A stretch of DNA of 64,000 nucleotides, taken from positions 62,001-126,000 of the forward strand of contig JAQQTI010000004.1 in NCBI GenBank assembly GCA_028561875.1. Direction: 5' to 3'. Positions 1 to 64,000 of this stretch are shown here, piece after piece. The position numbers and the translations under genes are program-made. This DNA comes from Methanomassiliicoccaceae archaeon COG_1. Lineage in GTDB: Archaea > Thermoplasmatota > Thermoplasmata > Methanomassiliicoccales > Methanomethylophilaceae. Under the pieces are notes generated by a model, which was given only the letters and a program-made list of their open reading frames with translations, made no database searches and was not told the DNA's origin. The number at the start of each line of letters is the position of its first letter. The stretch's first letter is position 1.

Positions 1-980
1 TGCTCTCCGCGGAGGGCAGGGACAGGGAGCTACTTTTCGAGAACGCAAGGGACGTCAGGGACGGGAAGTTCGGCGACAAGGTGTTCGCCTACGGCTTCGT
101 CTACTTCTCAACGTACTGCCACAACAACTGCACGTTCTGCTACTTCCGCAGGACGAACGGCATCGACCGCTACCGGAAGACGCCGGAGGAGATCGTCGAC
201 CTCGCCCTCGACCTGAAGGAGGAGGGCATCGACCTCGTCGACCTGACCATGGGGGAGGACGATCGGATGTACGGTGACGGCTTCTCCGGGCTCGTCGATA
301 TCGTCTCCCGCGTCCACGGCCTGGGGGTCTCCGTGATGGTGTCGCCGGGGGCGGTGGGCGAGGAGGCCATGCCGCGCCTGAAGGAGGCCGGCGCGGACTT
401 CTTCGCCGTCTACCAGGAGACTTACAACAGGGAGCTGTACTCCCGTCTCCGCCCGGAGCAGGACTTCGACTTCCGGTGCAACCAGAGGGCGTGGGCGAGG
501 GCGGCCGGCATGCTCACCGAGGACGGCATGATGGTCGGGCTCGGCGAGACCGTGGCCGACCGCGCCGACGCCATCCTCGCGATGTGCGCCGGGCCCTGCG
601 AGCAGATCCGCTGCATGACGTTCGTCCCGCAGACGGGGACGCCGCTGCAGAACCTCGAGCCGACGGGCTCCGGCATGGAGCTGAAGGCGATCGCCGCCAT
701 GAGGCTCCTCCGCCCGGACAGGTTCATCCCCGCGACCCTCGACGTCGAGGGCGTCGGGGGCATGAAGGCCCGCCTCGACGCGGGCGCGAGCACCATAACC
801 TCGATCGTCGTGCCGAGGAGGCACCTCGCCGGCGTGGCGCAGCCCGAGAAGGACATCGAGAGCGGTGCAAGGGGGGTCGACCACGTGTTCGAGCTGGTCG
901 ACGGGATGGGCAAGAAGGTCGCCTCGCAGAGGGACTTCTCCGCCATGCTCCGCCGGATGAAGGATGCCCTTCCGCGTCGA
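1..980 (+). CDS. pylB: PylB, 3-methylornithine synthase (5' end outside window)
   Basis: Radical SAM mutase that converts L-lysine to 3-methylornithine, the first step of pyrrolysine biosynthesis. The frame is already open at base 3. The 4Fe-4S motif CxxxCxxC appears as CHNNCTFC, followed by VDLTMGED and a TLDVEGVGGMKARLDAGA stretch, both characteristic of PylB. Roughly 40 N-terminal residues are missing. Similarity to known PylB ends near MGKKVASQRDFSAMLRRMKD. No standard stop follows until 1091, and the extra 37 codons would run through a TATA-like TTAAATA and low-complexity sequence. Two consecutive CGA codons lie at 978-983, exactly where the protein should end, and none occurs earlier, so I end the gene at the first. 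It shows that the host can make pyrrolysine. Confidence 0.92.
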
Positions 981-5006: not shown

Positions 5007-5591
5007 ATGTACATGATTACCGAGGCCCAGAGGATCGTGCGCATCCCTCCGTCGAAGCTCGGCTCGGACATCGCCGAAGTCATCGGCGGCATATCGTCCG
5101 AGACCTTCGAGGGCATGCTGCAGGACGACAAGTCCGTGTCGGTCCTCGTCAGCGATGTGGTGCCCGTCGGCAGCGGACGCATAGTCCACGGCGACGGGGC
5201 GGTCTACCAGACGGTCAAGTTCAGGCAGCTGGTGTTCGTCCCGAAGGACAACGAGGTCGTCGAGGGCGTGGTCGTGGAGATTCGCAACTTCGGAGCCTTC
5301 GTCCGCTTCGGCCCCCTGGACGGCCTCATACACGTGAGCCAGGTCATGGACGACCACGTCGACATCGACGAGGTCAATCAGAGGCTGATTGGGAAGGAGA
5401 CCGGCAGGTTCCTGGCCATCGGCGACCACGTCCGCGCGAGGGTCGTCAGCCTCGACCTGAACGAGAAGTCCCCCCAGGACAGCAAGATCGGCCTCACCAT
5501 GCGCCAGACCGGGCTCGGGAAGCTCGAGTGGCTCGACGAGGAGGAGAGGAAGCGCTCGGAGAAGGCCTCCAAGAAAGGGGGCGAGGAGCGA
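5007..5591 (+). CDS. rpoE1: DNA-directed RNA polymerase subunit E' (Rpo7)
   Basis: 194 residues. Stalk subunit of archaeal RNA polymerase, equivalent to Rpb7. It has an N-terminal ribonucleoprotein-like domain, then an S1 RNA-binding domain (GVVVEIRNFGAFVRFG, LDGLIHVSQ). It pairs with Rpo4 and helps promoter opening and RNA exit. The last codon before a stop is GAG, followed by CGA at 5589-5591, which overlaps the ATG of spt4 as CGATG. In other archaea this junction is typically TGATG. The standard frame runs 8 codons further into spt4. Confidence 0.93.
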
Positions 5592-5791
5592 TGGCGGGCG
5601 CCAGGATCGTGCTGAGGGCGTGCACCAACTGCCACCTCATCACCGAGGACGACGCCTGCCCCCGCTGCGCCAGCGCCACCAGCAAGGACTGGGTCGGCAT
5701 GGTGTGCGTGGCGGACCACGAGAAGTCGGAGATCGCCAGGAAGATGGGGATCACCGCGAACGGCAACTACGCGCTCAAGGTGCGCAGCTGA
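5591..5791 (+). CDS. spt4: Transcription elongation factor Spt4 (RpoE'')
   Basis: 66-residue zinc protein with the two Cys pairs CTNC and CPRC near the N-terminus, the hallmark of archaeal Spt4. It binds Spt5 and stimulates processive elongation by RNA polymerase. The ATG at 5591 overlaps the end of rpoE'. The rpoE'-spt4 order is the usual one in archaea. Ends at TGA. Confidence 0.93.
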   Translation: MAGARIVLRACTNCHLITEDDACPRCASATSKDWVGMVCVADHEKSEIARKMGITANGNYALKVRS

Positions 5792-6910: not shown

Positions 6911-6986
6911 GGACCCGTAGTATAGCTTGGATAGCACGGAGGCCTCCGGAGCCCCAGACTCGGGTTCGAATCCGACGGGTCCGCCA
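6911..6986 (+). tRNA. tRNA-Arg (anticodon CCG), structurally unusual, CCA encoded
   Basis: The acceptor stem GGACCCG pairs perfectly with CGGGTCC, followed by G and an encoded CCA. The anticodon loop is CTCCGGA, giving CCG, which reads the Arg codon CGG only. Three irregularities can be seen. The D stem has an A12-C23 mispair. The anticodon stem has A28-C42. The T arm lacks one base on its 3' side, leaving a four-pair stem (TCGG/CCGA) and an eight-base loop containing GTTCGAAT. Both A-C pairs would become A-U by a C-to-U change. It marks the left edge of the AT-rich island. It could be a divergent working tRNA or one damaged by integration. Confidence 0.75.
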
Positions 6987-9233: not shown

Positions 9234-10781
9234 TCATCGTTGCGTGATGGCAGTAGCCTCGGATGGGCTGTTCGACCTCTTTTTCCGCGGCTTCTTGTCC
9301 TTGCTTCCCTTGGGGCGTCCCGCCTTCTTCTTCGGTTCAAGCACCACTATAGGTCTATCTATCAATCCGAGTCTCGCCAGAAGATCCGAATCCTTCTCGG
9401 TGTACCTCTCGTTCTCCCATTCATCCCCATCCACCCTGGATTTCCTCTTGCATCTGAGCATATCCATGGTGTATCCGAACGGGACGGTCTCGAGTTCCTT
9501 CACCGCGCCGAAGGCGCGGAGAAGTCTCGACGTTAGTAGTGCCGATAGGAAGTTGACGAAATTGGTCGCAACCACGGAATAATCGGAATGCACACGGGTG
9601 TCGTCCAGGTCGAAATCGACCTTGTATGTGCGGAACATCAGTTCGATCAGCCATCTGTCGTCGTACATGGAGTACACCTTGGCGCAGTCCATGTCCCGAT
9701 CGGACTGGAAGACAACCGTGCCGAACTCCCTCTTCCGCAGTGCGAACTCTTCCGGAACGTAGCCTTCCTCGTGATGTTCGAGGTACAACCTCTCCTCATC
9801 GGCCGCGATCTCGGGGTCCCTGAACGAATACAACCAGCGTCCAGTCCCCGGTATCTCGGCCTTCTTGCACGAGACGGATGTGCCCTTCAGATGCGAATCG
9901 AAATCGTACATGCCGTATTCGGTTATGACGAGCTCATCCCTGTGCAGCGGGAGTATGTAATGCACGCCGTCCAGATCCTTCAACGCGGCTTCGATCGTAC
10001 CTATCCTGAATCCTTTGTCCGCTACGATCGTTCCGTGCTCTATCCCGAACGATCTGATGAAATCGGCGACGGCTCTGCCGTCGGTCATGTTGCCCGCATA
10101 CACCTTGGAGCATATGGGCTCATGCCTCTCGGAGCCATAGGCGTACATCATCAGATACTGCCTGGTCCCAGTCTTATACGTCTTCCTGGAAACCTGCGAG
10201 AGCGTGTTCACATCGCTCTCGCATTGCTGGAGCGACCCGTCGATGACCACTTCCTCGTCAATCGCTATGGTACCGACACGGGAACGCATGAAATCCCTGA
10301 TCCTGTTGCTTTCCCGCCCCACATCCTGCAGCTTCAGGCAGATGCTGTTCCTGCTCATCGGGACATCGGCATACATCTCCGACAAGAACGATTCCCGGTA
10401 CCTCCGTTGAATCTGGTAGTCCTTGACGTCAGGATAGCATGTGCGTATCACGCACATGCAGTACAGCCAGACGGCATCGTTGATCGAATAGAATGCGGTC
10501 AAATCCGACAGGACGTCCCTGAACACCATGTCGCACATGGCGACGTTTCCCCATTCCTTCGAATCTATCCGTCCCGGCGCTCCGACCGGCAGGGCGCCGT
10601 TCGAAGGGACGAACCCGCCGTTCACAAAATACCCCACGATGTCCCCGTCGACCACATGACGCTTCCCCTCATCGTCATACGTGTATCCACGCTTTTTCAC
10701 GGGATACATACCGTTCTTCCGGTAGACTACGACCGTGCCCGGAGGTCTCTCCATGTCGAGGATTTCGCGAGGTACTTTCAT
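9234..10781 (-). mobile_element. IS4/IS1634-like transposase
   Basis: 515-residue DDE transposase. The catalytic core shows the first Asp in TIAIDEEVVIDG (about residue 175), the second in IVADKGF (about 250), and the YREK signature of the IS4 group in YDDRWLIELMFRTYK (about 390). The C-terminus has an AT-hook-like GRPKGSKDKK and a basic tail. The gene is intact, starts at ATG and ends at TGA, so the element may still move. I could not identify clear terminal inverted repeats or a target duplication. An inverted repeat lies at 10817-10837, upstream of the gene. Confidence 0.88.
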
Positions 10782-31082: not shown

Positions 31083-32261
31083 ATGTATCTATCTCGCGAA
31101 GAGCAGGCCATCCTCGACGGGGAGATGGGCGCCGGCGCGCAGAAAGCGATGGAGCTGGTCACCGCGCTCGGCAAGGTCTACGGGGCCGACGGCCTCGTGG
31201 ACATCACCTCCGCGCACCTCTCGGGCGCGTCCTACAAGACCATCGGGGAGGGCGGCCTCAGGTACCTCTCCGACATGGCGGAGGGGGGCGCGAAGGTCGC
31301 TGTCAGGGCCACCCTCAACCCCGTCGGCATGGACCGCGAACGGTGGAGGGAGATGCACATCCCCGAATCCTTCGCGGCGAAGCAGAACGAGATCGTCCGC
31401 CTCTACGGCAGGATGGGCGTCGATACCGCCTGCACGTGCACGCCGTACCTCGGCGCCAACGTCCCCGCCCTCGGCGACCACGTCGCGTGGGCGGAGTCTT
31501 CCGCGCTGTCCTTCGTGAACTCGTACATCGGGGCGCGCACCAACCGCGAGGGCGGGCCGGGCGCGCTCGCCGCCGCGATCCTGGGGAAGACAGCCAACTA
31601 CGGGCTGCACCTGGACGGGAACAGGCGGCCCACCTTCATCGTGGATGTCGAGGCGTCCGTGGAATCGGTGTTCGACCACTCCGTCCTCGGCGAGGCCGTG
31701 GGCATGGCGATGGGCGGCGGCGTGCCGTACTTCCGCGGGATATCCCCGGCGGTGGATGATGCCAAGGCCCTCGGCGCGGCGATGGCCGCGGCCGGCGCTG
31801 TCGCCCTCTGGCACGCGGAGGGGTGCACCCCCGAGGCGGGGAGCGCCGACGTCTCCGGCCTCGAGAGGATCGGCATCGGCAGGGAGGAGATGAGGGCGGC
31901 TTACGAGAGGCTCAATACCGCCGACGACGTGCAGCTCATCGCCCTCGGCTGCCCGCACCTGTCCCCGAAGGAGATACACGACATCGCCATGCTTCTAAAG
32001 GGCAAGGAGAGGAGGAACAGGGACGTGGAGATATGGTTCTGCACCTCGGCGAAGGCCCGCGCGGAGTGCGCCGACGACGTGAAGGTCCTGGAGAGGTTCG
32101 GCCCGGTGCTGGCCGACACCTGCATGGTGGTCGCGCCCATCGAGGGGGCGTTCCAGCGCACGGCCACGAACTCCGCGAAGGCGGGGAACTACCTGCCCAC
32201 GCTGTGCTCCCAGAGGGTCATGTTCGACGACGTCTCCGCGCTCCTGAGGGTGATAGAGTGA
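31083..32261 (+). CDS. Aconitase X-type phosphomevalonate dehydratase, large subunit
   Basis: 392 residues of the AcnX/DUF521 family: LVDITSAHLSGASYKTIG, ACTCTPYLGANVP with the cluster-binding cysteines, AESSALSFVNSYIGARTNREG and IALGCPHLS. With the DUF126 subunit it dehydrates 5-phosphomevalonate in the archaeal modified mevalonate pathway for lipid synthesis. ATG at 31083 is preferred because a TATA-like CGCTATAAC lies about 30 bases upstream. The open frame upstream lacks coding character. TGA overlaps the next ATG (TGATG). Confidence 0.9.
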   Translation: MYLSREEQAILDGEMGAGAQKAMELVTALGKVYGADGLVDITSAHLSGASYKTIGEGGLRYLSDMAEGGAKVAVRATLNPVGMDRERWREMHIPESFAAKQNEIVRLYGRMGVDTACTCTPYLGANVPALGDHVAWAESSALSFVNSYIGARTNREGGPGALAAAILGKTANYGLHLDGNRRPTFIVDVEASVESVFDHSVLGEAVGMAMGGGVPYFRGISPAVDDAKALGAAMAAAGAVALWHAEGCTPEAGSADVSGLERIGIGREEMRAAYERLNTADDVQLIALGCPHLSPKEIHDIAMLLKGKERRNRDVEIWFCTSAKARAECADDVKVLERFGPVLADTCMVVAPIEGAFQRTATNSAKAGNYLPTLCSQRVMFDDVSALLRVIE

Positions 32262-33034
32262 TGATGAAGGGGCGCGCCATATCCGGCGGGAGGGCCGAGG
32301 GGGTCGCGATAACCTATCCCGAGGCGTTCAGCTTCCTCGGGGGCGTCGACGGCAGGACCGGGGAGCTCATATCCAGGGACGGGAACATCGGCGGCAGGGT
32401 CTTCCTCTTCCCGAAGGGGAAGGGCTCGACCGTCGGGTCGTACGTGGTGTACGACCTCAGGGTGAGCGGGCACGCGCCCGCCGCCATCGTAAACCGGACG
32501 GCGGAGACCATCGTCACCACCGGCGCGGTGATCTCCTCGGTGCCGATGGTCGACGGTATCGACGTATCGATCGTCAGGGACGGCGACGTCCTCGCCGTGG
32601 ACGGCGACGCCGGCACGGTGGAGATCAAAGGCGTCGAGGAGCGCCACGTCGCGACGGCGATGGTCGCCGTCGACGGGAAGGTGCTCCTACTCCGCAGGCC
32701 GGAAGGCGCCCGCTCGTTCCCGGGCGGATGGTCCCTCGTGTCGGGGGGCGTCGAGGGGGACGAGACCCCCCTGGAGGCCGCCCGCCGCGAGGTGAGGGAG
32801 GAGACCGGCATAGCGGTCGGCATGCCCGACGGCAGCCTGCCGGAGTTCCGCATCCGCGAGGGGGGGACGGTGTGGGTAGTGCACCCGGTGCTGTTCCGCC
32901 TCGAGGAGGCAGAGGTCGCGCTCAACGGCGAGAACGCCGCCTACGAGTGGCTGCCCGCCGCCGAGGCCGCGGCCCGCGAGGGGCTGGTCGACGGCGTCGG
33001 TGACGTGATAGAGGGGTTCGCGAAGCTCCTGCGA
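32261..33034 (+). CDS. Phosphomevalonate dehydratase small subunit (DUF126) fused to a Nudix hydrolase
   Basis: 257 residues. Residues 1-125 are the swivelling DUF126 subunit (GRAISGGRAEGVAITYPEAF, GSTVGSYVVYDL, AETIVTTGAVISSVPMVDG). Residues 130-257 are a Nudix domain with the box GGVEGDETPLEAARREVREE followed by TGI. No stop codon of any type separates them, so this is a real fusion. The Nudix part may act on an isoprenoid or nucleotide diphosphate. The protein ends at CGA 33032 after GFAKLL. The standard frame would add three codons and end in TAG. Confidence 0.88.
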
Positions 33035-36310: not shown

Positions 36311-37339
36311 TCAGAACCATGAATCCAGCGACTTCTGCCGCCTCCTCGTCTCCTGCTCCATCCTGGCCTTCTCGATCCTGTCTAGCGCCCCGGACACCCT
36401 CTCAGGGTTGAAGTCGTACGATGCGAGCATCTCCACCGCCCTGTCCTTCTCCACCGGCCTGTAGTCCGTGGAGTAGGAGTCGTTGCCTTCGTAACGCAGG
36501 AATATGTCCCTGATCTCGGGGTACTCGGGGATCTCCTGCCCGATCCTCGGCAGTATCCTCTCGAGGGAGCCGCCGTCCCTGACGAGCTTGAGGGCCTTCT
36601 TCGGCCCGATGCCCTTGATCCCGGGGTTGAAGTCGGTGCCCATGAGTATGCACATGTCGACGAGCTGCTCCCGCGTGATGCCGAGGCCGGCGAGGAACGC
36701 CCCGGAGTCGATCACCTCGGTCCTGATCTCGCGGTAGACCTCCTTGCCCGGCATCTTCCTCCTCCCCGTTAGGGCGAGGTTGCGGAGCAGGACCGGCGTC
36801 CCGAAGAGGAGCGAGTCGAAGTCCTGCGAGGCCGCCGCGTACACCGCTCCCTCCCGGCACATGTACGCCGCCTCCTGCTCGCCGTCGGAGGGGGCCTCGA
36901 CGACGGGGAAACCCATGTATCCGATGAGCTCCTTGGCGGAGCTCTTCACCTCCTTGGTCATGCGCGAGGTCTGCTGCGCCTTGCGGCGGGCGGTCTCCAT
37001 GTCGCCCTCGGCAATGGCCTCCCTCCACTCCTCGGTCGCCCTGTCCCTCCGCTCGGAGCGCTCCTTGAGCGTGGCGGCCTTGAGGGGGTGGGGCCTGCCG
37101 TCGAAGACGAAGACCGGCTCGATGCCCGCCTCGACGAGGTTCGCGGTGCGGTAGAGCAGGCCGGAGAGGTGAGAGGTCGTCCGGCCCTTGGAGTCGCACA
37201 GGGGATGCCCGTCGGGCTGCCGGATGGCCGACATGAACTGGTAGGCGATGTTGTAGGTGTCTATGGCGACCTTCTTCCCGCGGAGGTCCTCGAGCTCGAC
37301 GCTGCGGGGCTCGGCGAGGCCGGAGAGGTTCACCCCCAT
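36311..37339 (-). CDS. fen: Flap endonuclease 1
   Basis: 342 residues. Start MGVNLSGLAEPRSVELEDLR, N-terminal XPG block KKVAIDTYNIAYQF, FVFDGRPHPLK, internal XPG block with EAPSDGEQEAAYM, SQDFDSLLFGTPVLLRNL, and the helix-hairpin-helix GIGPKKALKL. The C-terminus QKSLDSWF is a PCNA-binding box. Cleaves 5' flaps in lagging-strand maturation. The ATG lies within the last codons of rpe, so the pair is coupled. A longer open frame upstream is antisense-like noise. Confidence 0.95.
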   Translation of the reverse strand: MGVNLSGLAEPRSVELEDLRGKKVAIDTYNIAYQFMSAIRQPDGHPLCDSKGRTTSHLSGLLYRTANLVEAGIEPVFVFDGRPHPLKAATLKERSERRDRATEEWREAIAEGDMETARRKAQQTSRMTKEVKSSAKELIGYMGFPVVEAPSDGEQEAAYMCREGAVYAAASQDFDSLLFGTPVLLRNLALTGRRKMPGKEVYREIRTEVIDSGAFLAGLGITREQLVDMCILMGTDFNPGIKGIGPKKALKLVRDGGSLERILPRIGQEIPEYPEIRDIFLRYEGNDSYSTDYRPVEKDRAVEMLASYDFNPERVSGALDRIEKARMEQETRRRQKSLDSWF

Positions 37340-37995
37340 CGGTCGCACTTCCCGATCGCGTGCCACTCCCCAATCTCGGCGGCCATGTCGGCGCTTCCGA
37401 AGAGGGAGCTGCCGGCGACGAGCACGTCCGCCCCCGCGCCTACGCAGTCCGCCGCGCGGGCGCGGTCGATGCCGCCGTCGACGGAGACCTCGTACCCCGC
37501 GCCGCGCCCGCGGCGGCCGGCGGCGGACTCTATCTTGGGAAGGGTGCCGGGGATGAACTTCTGCCCGCCGAAGCCCGCCTTGACGGACATTACGAGGACG
37601 AGGTCCGCCCTGTCGAGGTACGGCTCTATCTCGGCCATCGGGGTCGCCGGGTCGAGGGCGATCCCCGCCCTCACCCCGCGCTCCCTGATCCTCTCCATCG
37701 CGGCGGGGATGTCCCCCCCCGCCTCCGCATGCACGGTCAGCAGGTCCGCCCCCGCGTCCGCGAAGTCGTCGATGTAGCGCACCGGGTCGGTGATCATGAG
37801 GTGCACGTCGAACGGGAGGTCCGAGAGCTTCCTCACCGATTTCACGATGGGTGCCCCGAAGGTGAGGTTGGGGACGAAGACCCCGTCCATCACGTCGAAG
37901 TGGATCCAATCCGCCCCGCAGGCGTCCACCCTGCGGACCTCCTCGCCGAGGCGGGAGAAGTCGCAGGAGAGCATCGAAGGCGCTACTTTTACCAC
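37330..37995 (-). CDS. rpe: Ribulose-phosphate 3-epimerase
   Basis: 221 residues. KVAPSMLSCDFSRLGEEV, WIHFDVMDGVFVPNLTFG, DVHLMITDPVRYI, VMSVKAGFGGQKF and EVSVDGGID carry the metal-binding His/Asp residues and phosphate loops of the family. Interconverts ribulose- and xylulose-5-phosphate. Starts at GTG. A TATA-like ATTATATCTAC lies about 25 bases upstream on the minus strand. Confidence 0.93.
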   Translation of the reverse strand: MVKVAPSMLSCDFSRLGEEVRRVDACGADWIHFDVMDGVFVPNLTFGAPIVKSVRKLSDLPFDVHLMITDPVRYIDDFADAGADLLTVHAEAGGDIPAAMERIRERGVRAGIALDPATPMAEIEPYLDRADLVLVMSVKAGFGGQKFIPGTLPKIESAAGRRGRGAGYEVSVDGGIDRARAADCVGAGADVLVAGSSLFGSADMAAEIGEWHAIGKCDRWG

Positions 37996-39966: not shown

Positions 39967-41208
39967 ATGGCTTCGAAGAAGAAGAACATCTACGTCAACG
40001 GGATCGACCAGGTCCCCGTGCCGATGAGGCAGATCGAGATCGTCGAGAGGAAGGGGGTCGGCCACCCCGACTCCGTGGCCGACAACATCGCCGAGACCGT
40101 CTCCCAGGCCCTCTGCAGGATGTACAAGGGCGAGGTCGGCCACGTCCTCCACCACAACACCGACCAGACCGAGGTCGTCGCCGGCCGCGCCCGCTCGCAG
40201 TTCGGCGGCGGCTGCATCATCAAGCCGGTCTACGTCCTCATGGACGGCCGCGCCACCACCGTCATCGACAAGAAGGGCCGGGAGACACTCCTCCCGGTCG
40301 AGTCCACCGCCCTCAGGGGCGTCAGGGAAATGCTGAGGAGGGAGTACCCGCTCCTCGACCTGGATTCCGACATCATCCTCGACACCAAGCTCGGCATGGG
40401 GTCCGACGACCTCACCGGCGTCTACAAGGCGTCGAACTACCTGTCCAACGACACCTCCTTCGGCGTCGGGTACGCCCCGTTCTCCATCACCGACTCCCTC
40501 ACCTACGAGACCGAGAGGTTCATCAACGGGAGGGCCTACAAGAAGAGGCTCCCCGAGGCCGGCCAGGATGTCAAGGTCATGTGCTCCCGCGTGGGCGACA
40601 GGATAACCATGACCATCGCCTGCGCCATGGTCGACAGGTTCATCGACGACCGGGACCACTACCGGTCCGCCGTGGACCAGCTCGCCGCCGACGTCAACGA
40701 GAACGCCCTCGACGTGATAAGCAGGGCGGGCTCCGGCGTCAGCCTCAAGGTCGAGGTCAACACCGGCGACGACTACAAAAGGGGCGTCCTCTACGCGACC
40801 GTCACCGGCCTCTCGCAGGAGAACGGCGACGACGGGTCCGTCGGCCGCGGCAACCGTTGCAACGGCCTGATCACCCCGTACCGTCCCATGTCCATGGAGG
40901 CCACCTCGGGCAAGAACCCCATCACCCACGTCGGGAAGATATACAACGTGCTCTCCTCGATCATCGCGAAGGACGTGGCCAGGAAGGTGAAGGCCGAGGC
41001 GGAGATCCACGTCAGGCTCCTCTCGCAGATAGGGCACACCATCTCCGACCCCCTAAACGCCGCCATCGACATAATCGCGCCGGGGGCCGACGAGAACCCC
41101 AAGCTCCCCAAATGGCGGCAGGAGGCCTATTCCGTCGCCGCGGACTGGCTTGACAACATTGATAAAGTCTCCGAGGATATCATCAATGGCAAGATAAGGA
41201 CGTTCCGA
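39967..41208 (+). CDS. mat: Archaeal S-adenosylmethionine synthetase
   Basis: 413 residues, the normal archaeal length. VERKGVGHPDSVADNIAE, HHNTDQTEVVAGRARSQFGG, TKLGMGSDDLTGVYKA and GRGNRCNGLITPYRPMSMEA are archaeal MAT motifs. The protein ends NGKIRTF, followed by CGA at 41206-41208 and at once a perfect GC hairpin. Under the standard code the frame continues 216 codons across the whole next gene. No CGA among the roughly 25 arginine codons before it. Confidence 0.94.
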
Positions 41209-46985: not shown

Positions 46986-48272
46986 TTGGCGAAGATCGAG
47001 AAGGTATGGGCGAGGGAGGTCCTCGATTCCAGAGGCAACCCCACCGTGGAGGCCGTGGTCACCGTAAACGGGCACGACGTCTCCGCAATCGCGCCGTCCG
47101 GCGCGTCGACCGGCATGTGGGAGGCGAACGAGCTCCGCGACGGCGGCCCCCGCTACGATGGGAGGGGAGTCGAGAAGGCGGTGCGGAACGTCCGCACTTC
47201 GATCGCGAAGGCGATAACCGGCATGGACCCCACGGACCAGAGGGGCGTGGACGAGGCCATGATGAGGGCGGACGGCACCGAGAACAAGAGCGTCCTCGGC
47301 GGCAACGCCACCACGGCGGTCTCCTTCGCCGTGGCCAAGGCCGGGGCGTACGTTCAGGGCAAGGAGCTCTACCAGTACATCGGCGGCGACCATATGACCC
47401 TCCCGGTGCCGATGTTCAACATCATCAACGGCGGCAAGCACGCCGGGGGCAACCTGGAGATACAGGAGTGCATGATCATACCCGCCGGCGCGGAGTCCTT
47501 CTCCGAGTGCCTGAGGATGGCGGCCGAGACCTACATGTCCCTCAAGGCGATCCTGAAGAGCAAGTACGGCGTGGGCGCGATCAACGTCGGCGACGAGGGC
47601 GGGTTCGCCCCGCCGGTAAACACCGTCTCCGAGGCCCTTTCGACGATCGTCTCCTCCATCACCGACGCGGGCTACGTGCCCGGAGAGGACGTCTACCTCG
47701 GCATCGACTGCGCGTCGTCCGAGTTCTACGACGGGAAGACGGGGAAGTACCGCGTCGACGGCATGAAGCTCGACGCCGGCGAACTCGTCGACCACTACAA
47801 GGACATCATCGGCCAGTTCCCCCTCGTGAGCATCGAGGACCCCTTCGAGGAGAACGACTTCGCGACCACCGCGGATCTAACGAGGCAGGTCGGGAGGGAG
47901 GTGCAGATAGTCGGCGACGACCTGTTCGTCACCAACCCCAAGAGGCTGAGGGCGGGCATCGAGGCCGAGGCCGCCAACGCCCTCCTCCTCAAGGTCAACC
48001 AGGTCGGCACGGTCACTGAGGCGCAGGACGCCCGCGACCTGTGCGCGGAGAACGGCTACAGCGTCGTCGTCTCCCACCGCTCCGGGGAGTCCGAGGACAC
48101 CACGATCGCCGACCTCTCCGTCGGGTGGGGCACCGGTCAGATAAAGACCGGGGCGCCCTGCCGGGGCGAGAGGACCGCGAAGTACAACCGCCTGCTGAGG
48201 ATCGAGGATCGCCTCGGCCCGGACGCGGTCTTCTACGGGAGGAAGGCTCTGAAAGCTCCTTCGGCGCCCCGA
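46986..48272 (+). CDS. eno: Enolase
   Basis: 428 residues. ARSVLDSRGNPTVEA-like start (AREVLDSRGNPTVEAVV), GASTGMWEANELRD, VPMFNIINGGKHAGG, VSIEDPFEEND, the catalytic Lys in LLLKVNQVGTVTEA and SHRSGESEDTTIADL. Interconverts 2-phosphoglycerate and phosphoenolpyruvate. CGA at 48270 comes after FYGRKALKAPSAP, and TGA follows two codons later, so both readings give nearly the same protein. Confidence 0.95.
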
Positions 48273-48949: not shown

Positions 48950-50059
48950 TCGGTCCCACCCCATTACGCCCCGGTAGAGCCTGTGCACCTCGTCGAGGAT
49001 TTCGCCGCACCCGAGTCTCCCGGCGCTCGCGGCGACCGCCGCGACGGACGCCCCCCCGCAGCCCACGCCCTCCTTGATGTAGCCCCACTCGTAGGCCTGC
49101 AGGCCCTCGTACGGGCTCAAGGAGTAGTCCATGTTTATGTAGACGATGGGGATCCTGTCGGAGATGTGCTCCATGAGCCTCTCCATGGAGGAGTTCGGGT
49201 CGGAGATCAGCCACCGGGTGGTGCCCTGCACGATGTTCCCCTGGATGGAGGGGTCGAGCTTCACCGCCGCGGCCATGACGGCCGCCATCTGCGTTCCCCC
49301 CCCGACGATGACCGGCACCCGTTTCGCGGCGCCGATGATCATGCCCACGTCCACGGGCATCATCGGGTCGCCGACGATCTCGATCGCCTTGAGCGGGTCG
49401 TCCGCGAGGCCGCCGATGTCGTAGCCCGCCCTGCCGATGCCCTCGACGGCGGTGTCGTACTTGAGCTGCTTCGGGTTCTTCGGCGAGGACGAGCTCACGA
49501 GGTTCTCCCTCACCGTGCCCATCGCGAGGAGCACCGCCAGCGCGGTCGTGGTTCCGCCGGCGCAGGACTCGGAGACGACGATGTAGTCGTGCGTCCTCGC
49601 GAGCTGCTCGCCGAGTATCCTCCCGTATTCGAAGCTCCGCCCGACGTTGCTAACCGATCTCCCGCTGGTGATCTTCTCGCCGTACGTCCCGCCGACCTCG
49701 ATGCAGGGGATGTTCGGGACGACCTTGCACCCGCCGTTGACTATGAGCATCGGCATGCCGGAGAGCTCGAGGGAGGCCTTTGTCAGCGTCGCGGGGGTGG
49801 GGATCCCCCCGGGGTTGATGGGCAGCCCCCTCATGCACACCACCTTGCCGAGGACGAGGAACTCCGCGTCGGCGGCGGGGGTGAATAGGGTGAGCTCGGG
49901 CGTATCGCCCGCCTCGGATATCCCGGGTATGGTCGACGTCAGGGTGTTGGCGACGGTGCAGGTGAACACGCCCCTCCTCCCCCAGATGCGGGAGAGGACG
50001 TCCTCCGCAATCCCGCGGTCTCCGCGCACGCCCAGGGAGGGAGGGAGTTCGAACGTCAT
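48950..50059 (-). CDS. CobT-like nicotinate-nucleotide phosphoribosyltransferase family protein
   Basis: 369 residues of the archaeal family related to nicotinate-nucleotide-dimethylbenzimidazole phosphoribosyltransferase. GISEAGDTPELTLFTPAADA, GIPTPATLTKASLEL, VVSESCAGGTTTALAVLLAM and GTTRWLISDPNSSMERL are its conserved blocks. Likely role in activating or attaching the lower ligand of the corrinoids needed for methyl transfer. CGA 48950 follows GVMGWD. The standard frame would add 31 arginine-rich codons and end at TAA 48857. ATG overlaps the apgM stop. Confidence 0.85.
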
Positions 50060-51171: not shown

Positions 51172-53340
51172 TCGCAGGCGGCGGAGGGCGATCGCCGCCT
51201 GGCCGGTGGAGATGCCGCCGTCGCCGTTCGGGACGCGGCCGTGCACGACGAGCTCCATGCCCCTCTCCTCGGCGAGCTCCTTCGCCATCCTGGCTATGGG
51301 AACGTCGTAGGAGACCCCGCCGGTGATGCCGATGCGCCCCTCCCCCTCCGCCTCGGCCGCCTCCGCCGCGGCCGAGACCATCTCGGAGAGGATGCCGCGC
51401 ACTGCGGAGTACGCGGCGTCCGCCTTGTTCTCCTCGGCGTCGATGAGCGGGAAGAGGCGCGCCGTCTCGATGACGCCGTTCGACGTCCCTGTCCCGAACC
51501 CGTCGATCAGCCGCCCCCTTGCGAGCAGGGGCTCGAGCTTCATCGCGGGCTCGCCGTCGTACGTCCTCCTTTCGCAGACTCCGGCGGAGTACGCTATGGC
51601 GTCGAGCACCCTCCCGAAGGACGACGCCCCCACGCTCTTCGGCATGAGCCTGCGGAGGACCTCCGCCTCGCCCTCCCCGAACGAGGAGTTCTCCTCCCCG
51701 TTCATCTCGTCGATGGCGAAGCGCAGGCGGCGCAGGTCGTGGAGCGCCCGCTCCGAGCCGAGCAGCGGGATGTACTGGAGGTGCGCGCATCTCCTATACG
51801 AGTCGAACCCGCAGGAGAGGACCTCCCCGCCCCATGCCATGCCGTCGTCGCCGTGCCCGGTGCCGTCCACCGCGATCGCGGCGATGTGCTCCACGTCCCC
51901 GCGGTCCACCATGAGCGAGGCGGCGTGCGCCCAATGGTGCTGCACGTCGATCAGCTCCGCGCCGCACTCCTCGGCGAGGCGCCTCGCGAATCTCCTGTTG
52001 GCGTAACCGGGGTGCAGGTCCTCGGCGACGATCTGCGGGGCGCATCCCGTCAGCTCCATCTGCAGCCTCACCGCCTCCTCGAGGTACTCGGGGACGCCTA
52101 GGCCCCCGCCGTCGCCGATGTGTTGCGTCGGGCAGATCCTCCCGCCGGCGGCGACCGCCCCGGCGAGGCTCTCCTGCGCGCCGACGGCGGCCGCGGAACC
52201 CTTCCACGGGACATCGTAGAAAGAGGGGACGCTCCCCCTCGACTTGCGTATGTAGAATGTGTCGGCGCCGAACATCCGGAGGACGCTGTCGTCGGCGCGG
52301 TTGACGATCTCCTGGTCGTGCAGGAGGTACATGTCGGCGCCGAGCCCCATTACGTCCCCGTCACCGATGATCATCGGCTCGCCGGGGGCGTTCGCCGAGG
52401 TCATGACGAGGGCGTCCTCCTTGAGGGCGTCGAAGAGCAGGTGCTGCACCCCGGCGTACGGGAGGAAGACCCCTATGTTGCCGAGGCCGGGGGAGACGAG
52501 CTCCGTGACGCCGCCCCTTCTCTTCTCGGCGAGGACTATCGGGCGGTGCGGCGACTGGAGCACCTCGACCTCCTCGTCCGTCGGCCTGCAGTACCGCCTC
52601 GCGGCTTCGACATCCCTCGCCATGATCGCGAAGGGCTTCTGCTCGCGGCGGTACCACTTGCGCATGCGCGCGGTCTCGGAGAGGATGCAGCATATGTGCA
52701 TGCCGCCCCAGCTCTTGGCGACGCCTATCCCCCCCTCCCCCAGCATCTCCGCGAACCTCCTGACGGGCTCGCCGGGAACCTCGCCCCCGGAGCGGTCCAG
52801 CAGGCGATAGCGCGGCCCGCATTCCGGACAGCAAACGGTCTGGTGGTGGAACCTCCTGTCGCCCGGATCGGCGTACTCCCTGCCGCATGCGGGGCACATC
52901 GGGAAAGCGTCCATCGCCGTCCTCCGCCTGTCGTACGGGAGGGAGCGCAGGAGGGTGAACCGCGGCCCGCAGCCCGTGCAGGTGGTGAACGGGTACCCCA
53001 TCCTCCTGCCGGAGCGCATGTCCGCAAGGCACTCCGGGCAGACCGCGGTGTCCGCGGGGATGGGCGCGCCGAGGCTCGCATCGTCCTTGGATTCGGTTAT
53101 GGAGAAGCCCTCGGCCGAGGGGTCGAGATCGCGCTCCCTCCTCTCTATGCTCTCGATCCTCGCGAGCGGCGGGAGGTTGCGGAGCAGCTCGGCGAGGAGC
53201 TCCTCCCCCCTGTCCGCGTCGATCGTCACGCAAGAGCCGTCGTTGCGGACGGTGCCGCGGGCGCCGACGGCCTCCGCGGCGCGGTAGACGGCGGGACGGA
53301 AGCCCACCCCCTGCACCGTGCCCCTGATGATGAATCTCAT
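51172..53340 (-). CDS. hypF: Carbamoyltransferase HypF
   Basis: 722 residues, close to the usual 750. Acylphosphatase domain (FIIRGTVQGVGFRPAVYRAA), two zinc-finger blocks (CPECLADM, CTGCGPRF, CPACGREY, CPECGPRY), YrdC domain (GMHICCILSE, PHRPIVLAEK) and the Kae1-like carbamoyltransferase domain (VAVDGTGHGDDGMAWGGEVL). Makes the cyanide ligands of [NiFe] hydrogenases. Frame read in full with no internal CGA. It ends at CGA 51172 after GQAAIALRRL, where other HypF proteins stop. Start MRFIIRG at 53340. Confidence 0.94.
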
Positions 53341-53451
53341 GTCTTCCCTCCGCCGACGCGATGGCCCCCATCCCCTCCGGCGCCGCCGAGCGGGATGCCG
53401 GGCCCGCACTCCCCGCGCACGTAGCCGTCGAAAGCGGCGCGAGCCCCCGCG

Positions 53452-54728: not shown

Positions 54729-55376
54729 TCAGAGCCCTGCGGTGTACTTGTACGGATTCACGCGGAGCGCGGCCTCCGCCTCGAGCTCGGTGAGCCCCGC
54801 TCCCCGCGCCACCAGCCTGGCCCGCGCCTCGCTCATGAGGTCCTCCGGCGCGTGCGCGTCGGAATCGACCACCATGTCCGCTTTGGCCTCGCGGGCCACG
54901 GAGCACACGTGCCCGTTGGCTATGTTGTGGCCCATCCTGCCGGAGATCTCGATAAGGACCCCGTTCTCCTTGGCGGCCTCCGCCTCGCTCACCGAGAGCA
55001 TCCCGGGATGGGCGAGGACGTCGATGTCCGGGTTCTCAACGCTCGCGCGGTTCGTACCCGCCTCCACCGGTTCGACGGGCGTCTCGCCATGGACCACGAT
55101 CCATGCCGCACCGCATCTCCTGGCGGTCTTGGCCACCTCGGCGATCCTCGCCGGGCGCACGTGCGTTATCTCTACGCCCGGCAGCACTCTTATCTCATCA
55201 TCGCCCAAACCCGCGGCCCTCACCAGGTGCTCCGCCACCCACTCTACGTTCGTGGCGTCGACGTGGTCGGTGATGGCGATGAGGTCGTGGCCGAGGACCT
55301 TCGCCCTCCTGATGAGCTCGGCGGGGACGAGCTCCCCGTCGCTGTATACCGTATGCATGTGCAGGTCGGCCCTCAC
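54729..55376 (-). CDS. PHP-domain phosphoesterase
   Basis: 215 residues. [13 protein letters not shown] (first two metal histidines), [27 protein letters not shown] and DSDAHAPED cover the PHP metal site. Starts at GTG inside the hisIE stop, so co-transcribed with the his genes. It could be a histidinol-phosphatase (HisK type), which the context supports, or another PHP hydrolase. Confidence 0.85.
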
Positions 55377-55972
55377 TGTCTCCTCTCCGAAAGAACCTCG
55401 TACATCCTGTCGAGCGGTATGCCCTCCTTCACCACGGCGACGAGGGCGTGATAAACGAGGTCCGCCAGTTCCGAGGCCTCCCCGTCCTTGTCGTGGTCCT
55501 TGACCGCGAGGGCGAACTCGGCCGCCTCCTCGACAATCTTCTTGCACATCTTCGTCTCGTCGGCGAAGAGCTTACAGGTGTAGCTCCCCCCCTCGGGGTC
55601 GGCCCTCCGCTCCTCGATCACCCTGAGCAGGTCGGGAATGACCTGCGCCGTGCCCTCGGCGCTCCCCCAGACCTGCTTGAAGAAGCAGGAGGGCGCGCCG
55701 GTGTGGCAGGCCGCGCCGGTCTGCTCCACCTTCACGAGCAGGGCATCGGAGTCGCAGTCCGCCTGCATGGACTTGATCTTCTGCACGTGGCCGGACTCCT
55801 CCCCCTTCCTCCACAGCCTCTGCCGGCTGCGGGACCAGAAGCAGGTGCGCCCCGTGCGGAGCATCTCCTCCACCGCCTCCTCGTTGGAGTAGGCGAGCAT
55901 GAGCACCTCGTTGGTGCGGAAGTCCTGCACTACGACGGGCAGGAGGCCCTCGGCGTCGAATTTCAGATCCAA
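55373..55972 (-). CDS. hisIE: HisI-HisE bifunctional phosphoribosyl-AMP cyclohydrolase/ATP pyrophosphatase
   Basis: 199 residues. [17 protein letters not shown] and the zinc motif [20 protein letters not shown] make up HisI, and [19 protein letters not shown] makes up HisE. Catalyses the second and third steps of histidine synthesis. Start TTG 55972 directly follows CGA 55973-55975 of hisF (CGATTG). The standard frame joins both genes into 451 residues. Confidence 0.87.
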
Positions 55973-56725
55973 TCGCCTCACCTCGATGCCCCTCTCCCGC
56001 AGGTACTCGTGCACCTGCGCCGGGGTGCACTGCCCGTAGTGGAAGATGCTCGCCGCGAGGGCCGCGGCGCAGTCGGTCCGCTCGAACACCTCGTAGATGT
56101 GCTCCATGCTCCCGCACCCGCCGGAGGCGATGACGGGGACGCTCACCTCGTCGACCACGGCTTTGGTGAGCTCTATGTCGTACCCGTCCGCGGTACCGTC
56201 GGCGCCGATGCTGGTGAGGAGGATCTCCCCGGCGCCCATGTCCTCGGCCTCGGCGGCCCATTCGAGGGCGTCGAGGCCGGCCGGCCTCGTCCCGCCGGCG
56301 ACGAACACCTCGTACCTGCCCCCGACCTTCTTCGCGTCGATGGCGACGACCACGCACTGCCTGCCGAAGCGCTCCGCGCTCTCGGAGATGATGTCCGGGT
56401 CGGCGACGGCGGCGGAGTTGATGGAGACCTTGTCGGCGCCGGCGAGGAGGGCGGAGTGCACGTCCTCGGCGGAGCGGACGCCGCCCCCCACGGTTAGGGG
56501 GACGAACACCCTCTCCGCGGTCTCCCTCACAAGGCCGAGGGTCGTCCCCCTCGATTCCTGCGTGGCGGCAATGTCGAGGAAGGCGATCTCGTCCGCGCCC
56601 TCCCTGGAATACCTCTCGGCCAGGTCGGGAGGGTGGCCGACGTCCTTCAGGTCAGCGAACCCCGTTCCCTTGACGACTTTGCCGTCCTTGACGTCCAGGC
56701 AGGGTATGACCCTTTTCGCGAGCAT
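55973..56725 (-). CDS. hisF: Imidazole glycerol phosphate synthase cyclase subunit HisF
   Basis: 250 residues, the exact family length if CGA 55973 is the end. [60 protein letters not shown] and [10 protein letters not shown] follow the TIM-barrel order with the two catalytic Asp residues. ATG 56725, or GTG 56728. The start overlaps the hisB stop region. Confidence 0.9.
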
Positions 56726-56729
56726 CACC

Positions 56730-61861: not shown

Positions 61862-63718
61862 TCGGCCCGCCTCCACCGCCGCCTTCACGCCCTCGGCCAG
61901 CCGGTCCGCGTCCAGGTCCTCCAGACGGAAGTACCTAGCGCCCAGATTCTCCGCCAGCCTCTCGGCGTTGTCGAAGTGCGGGAATCCCGAGGAGGCGTCC
62001 ACGACAATCCACCTCACGCACGGGATCTTCAGGCCCTCGGACATCCTCTGCGCCTCCTCGTTGGCGTCCGCCCCCTGGCGCAGGGGCACGTTGGCGCGCC
62101 CGTCCGTGACCAGGACTACGAAGCACCTCTCACCGACGTGGCACCGTACGTACGCGGTCATGTACTCCTGCACCCTCGACAGGGCCTCCCCGAGCGGGGT
62201 CCTTCCCCCCGTGGGCAGCTCCTCGAGCATCCGGTAGCTGTACTCCACGGACCTCGTCGGCGGGAGGATCATGTCCGCCGAGTCCCGGCGGAAGGCCATC
62301 AGGCCGATGCGGTCCCTCTTGACGTAGCTGTCGCGGAGCATGGAGAGGATTGCGCCCTTGACGGTCGCCATCCTTCTCCTCACGCCAAGGGAGCCCGAGG
62401 CGTCGACGAGGAACAGCAGCGTGATGCCGCTCCTCCTCTCGCGCACCTTCTCCCTGATGTCACCATCCTCGATGACGACGGCGACGCCCTCCCTCGACCT
62501 CTCCGGCTGATGGGGTGCGGCGGCGCGGATGGTGGCGTCGAAGGCTACGTCCGCCGCCTTACCTCCGGGGATCCTCGCCCGGGCGTACCTGCCGGTGCCG
62601 TCGGCGCTCTGCGCCAAGGTGCGGCGACCCTTGCGGGACTTGGTGATGACGGGGACCCTCCCGTCCCCGCCCAGGTAGTCTATGACGGGGAACTGCCTCC
62701 CGATCTCGAACATCATCTCCTCGAGGTCCCGAACCTCGGGGGACTGCGTAAGGGGCTCCTGCCCCCCGCTACGGTCTTCGGGCCGTTCGGGGGGCTCCCG
62801 CCCATCGCTCCCTCCGGGCGGATTCCGGCCCCCGTCACCCCGCTCCTCGTGAGGCTCCGGAGGTGGGGCCTGGTCGTAGCTCCTCCGGTGCGGGAGACAG
62901 AGCACCGCCGCCTCCTCGACGTCCTTCTTCGTCACCTCATCCCTGCCGTTCAGCGCCGCCAGCGCCGATGCGCAGTTGACCATGGCTATGTCCCCGCGGA
63001 GGCCGTCAGTCCCGAGCCTGACGCACAGCTCCGAGACCACGTCGACGAGTTCGTCGGAGATCGTGACGAGGGGGAGGACCTTCACCGCCCTCTCGATTCT
63101 GGACCCCTCCGCCTCCTCCTCGTCCGCGAACATCCGGCGGAACCCGTCCGGATCCTCCGCGAAATCCGTGTTCCGCCGGAGGACCTCCCTCCGGTCGGCA
63201 TCCGCGGAAGGGTAGGCGCAGAGGTCGAAGCGGTCGAGGATGTGGGGGGAGAGGTCGTCCTCCTCGGGGTTCATTGTGGCTACGAGCGTAACGTCGAGGT
63301 CGTACCGCGCGGACACCGCCCCCCTCTCCACCCGCACCGAGCCGGTTAGGACGGCGTCGAGCACGCCGGCTAGCACGGCCCGGTCCATGAGGTTCGCGTC
63401 GTCGATGTAGAGGATGCCCCCGTCCGCCCGGGCGAGGAGCCCGGGGGCGAACACGGGCCTCCCGGACCTCATCGTCGCCTCAACGTCCATGCCGCCGAAG
63501 ATCTGCTCCTCGGAGGCGTTCAGCGGGCAGTTGACCATCCTCCTGCCGGACATGCCCGCGGCTGCGCGGGCCAGCGTCGACTTCGCCGAACCCTTGCCGC
63601 CCCGGATCATCACCGTCTTTAACCTCGGGGAGACCAGCGCGCACTCCAGCGCGCGCTTGGCATCCTCCATGCCGACTACGGCGGTGAACGGGAGCGACGT
63701 CGGAGGTTCCCCAGGCAT
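61862..63718 (-). CDS. Magnesium/cobalt chelatase-like protein, AAA plus VWA (ChlI-ChlD type)
   Basis: 618 residues. AAA+ part: Walker A RGGKGSAKSTLA (about 40), Walker B GGILYIDDANLMD (about 105) and VATMNPEEDD. An acidic and proline-rich linker (about 290-330) follows, then a VWA domain with the MIDAS motif DASGSLG (about 455) and VLVTDGRANVP. Such proteins drive metal insertion into tetrapyrroles together with a large CobN/ChlH subunit, here probably for cobamide or a related cofactor. In-frame CGA 61862 ends it after AEGVKAAVEAG. The standard frame continues 24 codons, through an AATTATTACG promoter-like run, to TAG 61787. Otherwise no CGA in 618 codons. Confidence 0.87.
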
Positions 63719-64000
63719 GCTTCGAGCTCCTCCCTGTCGAGGGCCCTCTCCTCGAAGGGCCTCCTCTTCAGCCGATGGGATAGCACGAGCTCCGCCGTCC
63801 GGCGGATGTCGCCCTTATCGACCTTCGAGCGCCCCTCGAGGGCGGCGTTCGCCTTGGCGGCCTTGAGCAGCGTTATGTCCGCCCTGTGCCCGTCCACGCC
63901 GAAATGCGCCATCACCGAGACCACCATGTCGACGGCGTCGTCGCCGGCCTCCACCGAGGGGTGCAGGGCGATTGCGCCCTCCAGCCTCTCTGCCAAGGCG
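63700..64000 (-). CDS. ChlI-type AAA ATPase subunit, C-terminal part (5' end outside window)
   Basis: About 99 residues of the lid region of a magnesium-chelatase ATPase (GVDGHRADITLLKAAKANAA, LEGRSKVDKGDIRRTAELVL, SHRLKRRPFEE). Partner of the next gene, whose ATG overlaps it by about 20 bases. The family ends around EELEACLGNL, and CGA follows at 63700-63702. The standard stop would be TAG at 63676. Confidence 0.8.

Follow-up and report, generated by a model that had tools for sequence, protein, structure and literature searches.

Genetic code changes reported outside organelles have, to our knowledge, been either stop codons turned to sense or swaps of one amino acid for another, and sense-to-stop reassignment has so far been described only in mitochondria; we know of no cellular example. 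The stop codons read by aRF1 and eRF1 begin with U. In the Methanomassiliicoccales, the order to which the archaeon discussed here, a gut-type methanogen, belongs, TAG is used for pyrrolysine, i.e., a stop codon has become a sense codon, and the change considered below for CGA runs in the opposite direction.

The nearest kind of change is a mitochondrial one such as that of UCA in the Sphaeropleales (PMC6821328). That report describes a sense codon that left coding sequence and became a stop, with correlated changes in the release factor, and this is the likeness to the present case (PMC6821328). There, the setting is an organelle with few genes and a bacterial-type factor, mtRF1a, whereas here it is a cellular genome with an archaeal aRF1, about a third of the compared genes are affected, and the codon starts with C (PMC6821328). 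The Codetta screen found bacteria of low GC in which CGA and CGG have been given to a different amino acid, and its report lists no archaeal sense codon with a changed amino acid (PMC8629427). Those cases resemble ours in that an arginine CGN codon at low use is reassigned alongside tRNA changes, and they differ in that CGA would here turn into a stop codon and in that the archaea concerned have a GC content of about 60 per cent (PMC8629427). New stop codons are undetectable by the Codetta method (PMC8629427), which would explain why a CGA stop had been missed.

Materials and Methods

The window is the whole stretch of 64,000 nucleotides that was analysed, spanning 62001-126000 on contig 4 of an archaeal assembly (hereafter G000) that measures 1.51 Mb and is 86 per cent complete; coordinates without a locus name are positions in the window. 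The G000 sample for genome-wide counts amounted to 455 kb, i.e., the window and 391 kb more from the same genome. All results are based on DNA, mostly from metagenome assemblies, with gene ends drawn from portions of a small number of genomes, and gene models were obtained from a codon score and tblastn without gene-by-gene curation.

For the homologue-end test, 529 standard-code protein queries from the congeners G012 and G041 were compared to the G000 sample, and stop counts per genome were taken from non-overlapping best hits within a three-codon window at the homologue end. The context test used a codon-usage score blind to both stops and CGA, and its result for each codon is the number of places with coding signal on both sides over the number with coding signal before. 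The tRNA-Arg(UCG) signature is a relaxed sequence pattern; a strict pattern missed several genomes. The 80 named aRF1 loci were the set in which the genome SIG8 was picked out.

Results

The rpoE' gene (5007-5591, plus strand), encoding RNA polymerase subunit E', ends in CGA. Its 3' end in the window reads GGC GAG GAG CGA TGG CGG GCG CCA GGA TCG TGC TGA, in which the CGA (5589-5591) overlaps the ATG (5591-5593) of spt4 as CGATG, and the rpoE' frame reaches its first standard stop after that at 5613-5615. The spt4 gene itself (5591-5791, plus strand; NF041664, match 5591-5788) ends in TGA. The CG-ATG overlap, with the A in common, has the same geometry as TGATG. A sequence-only reading of this DNA had proposed that CGA fills the stop position of a coupled gene pair here, and the arrangement GAG CGA TGG/ATG is as it described. 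The segment before the CGA, 5007-5588, matches the RpoE' profile (NF006333, with 1-186 of its 188 positions aligned to residues 1-186 out of 194).

That reading had also asked whether relatives have TGA in the same column. We compared 29 relatives, of which three were unreadable by the junction motif (two of these three read TGATGG), and among the 26 readable junctions 23 are TGATG, with TAATG, TAATA, and TGACA making up the rest. A conserved WRAPGSC-like tail of RpoE' in relatives had been named as the observation that would speak against a stop at CGA, and this tail is absent from all 26 readable junctions. The CGATG overlap was dropped as stand-alone evidence: AGA, GGA, and GAA close to gene ends precede TG about as often as CGA does, and so the shape alone proves nothing; the decisive evidence comes from the homologue-end test.

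Several other genes of the window end in CGA. The pylB gene (81-980, plus strand) matches TIGR03910 through the last of its 347 profile positions and is followed by a second CGA (981-983); the tandem CGA CGA that had been noticed at its end is thus borne out at 978-983, with the next standard stop 37 codons on. The hisF gene (55973-56728, minus strand) matches TIGR00735 over positions 1-254 of 254 up to 55976, i.e., to one codon before its CGA (55975-55973). Directly after this CGA, hisIE (55373-55972, minus strand; NF002747) starts with TTG, and it ends in TGA. Under the standard code, hisF and hisIE would be a single 451-codon ORF, but the HisF profile is complete at the CGA, and the CGATTG link noticed for this pair from sequence alone is real. 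The rpe gene (37339-37995, minus strand) ends in CGA in a CGATG overlap with an XPG/FEN-like gene (36311-37339). CGA likewise ends the genes for methionine adenosyltransferase (39967-41208, plus strand; NF003364 through position 400 of 400, at residue 413 of 413), where the next standard stop lies 216 codons past the CGA; enolase (46986-48272, plus strand; TIGR01060 to 422 of 425); and a CobT-like phosphoribosyltransferase (48950-50059, minus strand; TIGR00303). In hypF (51172-53409, minus strand; TIGR00143 to 740 of 741), the next standard stop is 372 codons past the CGA, across the neighbouring gene.

A cobaltochelatase-like gene (61862-63718, minus strand; TIGR02442 to 641 of 641) also ends in CGA. 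The region 61862-63996 holds two overlapping minus-strand frames, each with a chelatase profile match, and the shorter one (63700-63996), truncated by the window edge, is CGA-terminated as well. A further gene with a CGA end (32258-33034, plus strand) combines DUF126 and a Nudix domain in one frame; DUF126 is the small subunit partner of aconitase X, which is encoded immediately upstream. The IS1634-like transposase gene (9237-10781, minus strand; profile match below the family cut-off) ends in CGA TGA. This transposase lies in a region (7000-31000) of about 50 per cent GC, compared to about 65 per cent in the remaining window, that follows a tRNA-Arg(CCG) gene (6911-6986). The region also contains a type I-E-like cas set (Cas3, Cse1, Cse2, CT1975-like, Cas1, and Cas2) together with AAA ATPases. 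The larger genes of this region are likewise nearly without CGA.

Across the G000 sample, 30 of the 87 genes compared with homologues end in CGA, 43 in TGA, and five in TAA, with none of these codons found for nine. CGA ends number 0 of 96 in the congener G012 and one of 89 in G041, and the difference from G000 has a Fisher p of 6e-16. Among 99 genes aligned near the homologue end, an in-frame CGA precedes the standard stop in 41, and the standard stop in these genes is scattered up to 269 codons on; the CGA coincides with the homologue's stop column in 15 of the 41 and is no more than five codons away from it in 38. When only the exact stop column was used, with no window, 78 G000 genes gave 32 TGA, 15 CGA, and four TAA, with every other codon at four or fewer. 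The homologue codon for the 15 CGA genes is TGA in 14 and TAA in one, and the direct exchange between TGA and CGA that had been suggested from the junctions is thereby seen genome-wide.

Inside genes, CGA was counted at eight of 30,692 aligned codons in the sample without the aRF1 gene. None of the eight is convincing, as five fall in one antisense query, two upstream of a likely start, and one at an alignment edge; with the queries G012_75 and G012_221, the internal CGA counts are due to frames that lie antisense. Two marks of a sense-to-stop change are found in G000, namely CGA at the stop position of homologues and its near absence inside coding sequence, with the aRF1 gene, which has one in-frame CGA, as the exception. 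TAG ends none of the 87 compared genes and makes up three of 31,791 aligned internal codons, so that conserved genes of G000 make hardly any use of it in either role; the genome encodes tRNA-Pyl(CTA) and has pylB inside the window.

In the context test, coding signal on both sides was found for 18 of 402 CGA, 17 of 374 TGA, 10 of 102 TAA, and 103 of 420 TAG, and the lowest of the remaining sense codons was TTA at 51 of 166. After retraining of the model, the counts were 14 of 354 for CGA and 19 of 353 for TGA, and coding signal breaks off at CGA as it does at TGA. We would like to note that this ratio alone does not discriminate, because relatives in which CGA is merely rare also score low (G041 7/99; G016 2/43). 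What sets G000 apart is the tally of places where coding sequence gives way to noncoding sequence, which, counted as CGA to TGA, stands at 340 to 334 in G000 versus 92 to 390 in G041.

The aRF1 of G000 is related to named loci of Methanomassiliicoccales, e.g., those of Candidatus Methanomethylophilus sp. 1R26, UBA78, and UBA593. A second genome with many CGA ends is SIG8 (Thermoplasmata archaeon, locus L226), in which six of seven genes around and including aRF1 end in CGA. In 316 kb of SIG8, ends are CGA in 31 of 85 genes, TGA in 45, TAA in one, and none of these in eight, and CGA occupies three of 29,530 aligned internal codons. The 31/85 contrasts with 2/74 in G016 and G036 together (p = 3e-8), and in the exact column only the values are 10/66 versus 1/57 (p = 0.01). 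Elsewhere, CGA ends were found at 4/23 in RGIG6908, all at offset 0, 3/40 in Tb.RUG.29, 2/43 in G036, 1/22 in G003, 0/31 in G016, and 0/3 in G043; CGA is rare in the whole family. G000 and SIG8 fall in separate well-supported clades of the aRF1 tree, so heavy use of CGA ends would have arisen at least twice, or would be ancestral and subsequently lost.

Within the genus of G000, cmk and cbf5 are a single ORF when read in the standard code, and a CGA marks the end of the cmk profile. The cmk end is CGA in seven of the eight distinct genus genomes read and TGA in RUG10898 (G048). The frame at the cmk-cbf5 junction is open in 11 of the 12 genus genomes with a match, including G000, whose codon was not read.

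The residue of human eRF1 that guards against first-position C is Arg68, and simulations of eRF1 disfavour CGA by about 6 kcal/mol, with the first-position C penalty down to 1-2 kcal/mol for Arg68Ala (PMC5681627). The aligned residue in aRF1 is Met here and Arg in 4af1, the solved archaeal factor with the best match. Met occurs there in the outgroups L214-L225 as well, in which CGA is an ordinary sense codon at 2 to 15 per 1000 codons. Met as a sufficient cause is ruled out by these outgroups, and since the residue is shared with them it would be permissive only; its bearing on the reading of CGA by aRF1 is suggestive. In SIG8 (L226), the aRF1 has NIKSKTTMNHV where relatives have NIKSKTTMKNV, adjoining the codon-reading loop.

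The tRNA-Arg(UCG) signature was detected in most genomes tested, G000 included, and the relaxed-pattern search did not find it in SIG8, Tb.RUG.29, G036, G026, G043, and G050. The G000 gene (L043:12160-12235, contig 1) scores 30.8 bits, the lowest score listed; of the other ten loci, eight score 48.8-56.5 bits, one 36.5, and L245 is below threshold. Loss of this tRNA as the cause of the change in G000 is unsupported, the gene being present.

The one in-frame CGA of the G000 aRF1 gene is the arginine codon at site 15, which is CGA in all 14 genus genomes, G000 included. The sister clade comprises 20 rows, of which 19 have the CGA at site 68, and SIG8 is the sole row without it. This site-68 codon is the only internal CGA in RGIG6908 (9,534 aligned codons) and in Tb.RUG.29 (15,214). 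The aRF1 CGA is at site 1 in G010 and G021 and at sites 15 and 17 in G011 and G022, and lineages with commoner CGA (e.g., G006, G014, and L182) do not follow the pattern. Five aRF1 loci (L342, L346, L347, L348, and L349, in G036, G050, G043, G026, and G102) keep the site-68 CGA in genomes without the tRNA-Arg(UCG) signature.

Bacterial RF2 is autoregulated by an in-frame stop in prfB, and the aRF1 gene resembles prfB in keeping a termination signal early inside the release factor's own gene, conserved in relatives (PMC12421855). The codon is CGA in aRF1 and UGA in prfB (PMC12421855). Unlike prfB, the aRF1 frame continues unshifted past its CGA, so that read-through by an arginine tRNA is required, and the regulation is a putative one (PMC12421855). 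No programmed frameshift past the CGA was found in the rows aligned, and because of this the aRF1 gene is not a member of the prfB class, although it may work like it. We consider it fairly likely that the CGA is kept early in the gene for autoregulation.

Discussion

These comparisons are best explained by CGA serving as an additional stop codon in two or more lineages of the Methanomethylophilaceae. For G000, we consider it nearly certain from the gene-end data that translation ends at CGA, highly probable that CGA is a termination codon added beside TGA and TAA, and likely that it is recognised directly by aRF1. Ribosomes at CGA would end translation and presumably reinitiate at the overlapping start, as at TGATG. 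The history that we propose starts with CGA being expelled from coding sequence family-wide, with tRNA-Arg(UCG) weakened or lost in places. An aRF1 with Met at the Arg68 position would then tolerate first-position C enough for release at CGA, and TGA-to-CGA changes at gene ends would have become acceptable in G000 and SIG8 and spread. A loosened aRF1 competing with a weak arginine tRNA is the mechanism we favour, with CGA captured more fully as a stop in these two genomes, and the output of aRF1 would be set by the same competition between release and arginine insertion at the early in-frame CGA. SIG8, with neither the tRNA signature nor the aRF1 CGA, fits such a competition, whereas the aRF1 CGA of the five genomes lacking the signature does not follow from it. 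What counts against an added stop is that G000 encodes tRNA-Arg(UCG) and needs CGA as sense in its aRF1 gene, and that its close relatives G012 and G041 hardly use CGA at gene ends. Those five genomes, the Met of the outgroups, and the nine of 87 G000 ends with no stop-like codon weigh on the same side. The tRNA of G000 may survive mainly to read that single CGA.

The low score of this tRNA, the missing signature in SIG8, and the avoidance of the codon across the family would also suit a CGA that is unassigned, at which the ribosome stalls for want of an efficient tRNA and a rescue pathway releases the peptide. We regard this as improbable: the tRNA gene is present in G000, so the codon is not without one there, stalling at about a third of gene ends would be costly, and a conserved CGA in the aRF1 gene makes most sense if aRF1 senses CGA. 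Greater doubt still attaches to C-to-U RNA editing, which occurs in plant organelles and by which UGA would be made from CGA in the mRNA and the code left unchanged. Such editing would sit well with the TGA of homologues in 14 of the 15 exact-column cases, but we know of no such mRNA editing in archaea, editing restricted to the ends of a third of genes would require a signal at every site, and both the scarcity of CGA inside genes and the kept aRF1 CGA would go unexplained.

The reading to which we give the least credence is that CGA is ordinary arginine and that G000 genes have C-terminal extensions or suffer from assembly errors. CGA is rare family-wide, and its absence inside genes is thus no evidence by itself. 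The ordinary-arginine reading is nevertheless refuted statistically: CGA is concentrated exactly where homologues end, in G000 and SIG8, which belong to separate clades, but not in the congeners; the profiles of the window genes end at CGA; extensions of up to 372 codons would cross neighbouring genes; and the cmk CGA is common to seven genomes.

Returning to CGA as an added stop, we lean, with some reserve, towards a family-wide view in which CGA has a dual meaning in all Methanomethylophilaceae. Under it, aRF1 can terminate at CGA, the CGA in the aRF1 gene, which moved between clades, would meter aRF1 synthesis, and at least two lineages would have promoted CGA to a general stop. Searches of the open-access literature brought up no account of archaea that use CGA as a stop; reports elsewhere would be missed. 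Re-annotation is called for, given that gene calls under the standard code lengthen or fuse about one in three of the compared proteins. If CGA has indeed become a general stop, the code would be the first of any cell in which a sense codon has turned into a stop, and CGA the first stop codon of a cell to start with a base other than U; it would break both the pattern of code changes outside organelles and the U-first rule for stops read by aRF1 and eRF1. It would provide a test of the first-base discrimination predicted for eRF1, and the family would offer a graded natural series, with the share of CGA ends running from 0 to about 36 per cent, in which to watch a codon change its meaning.
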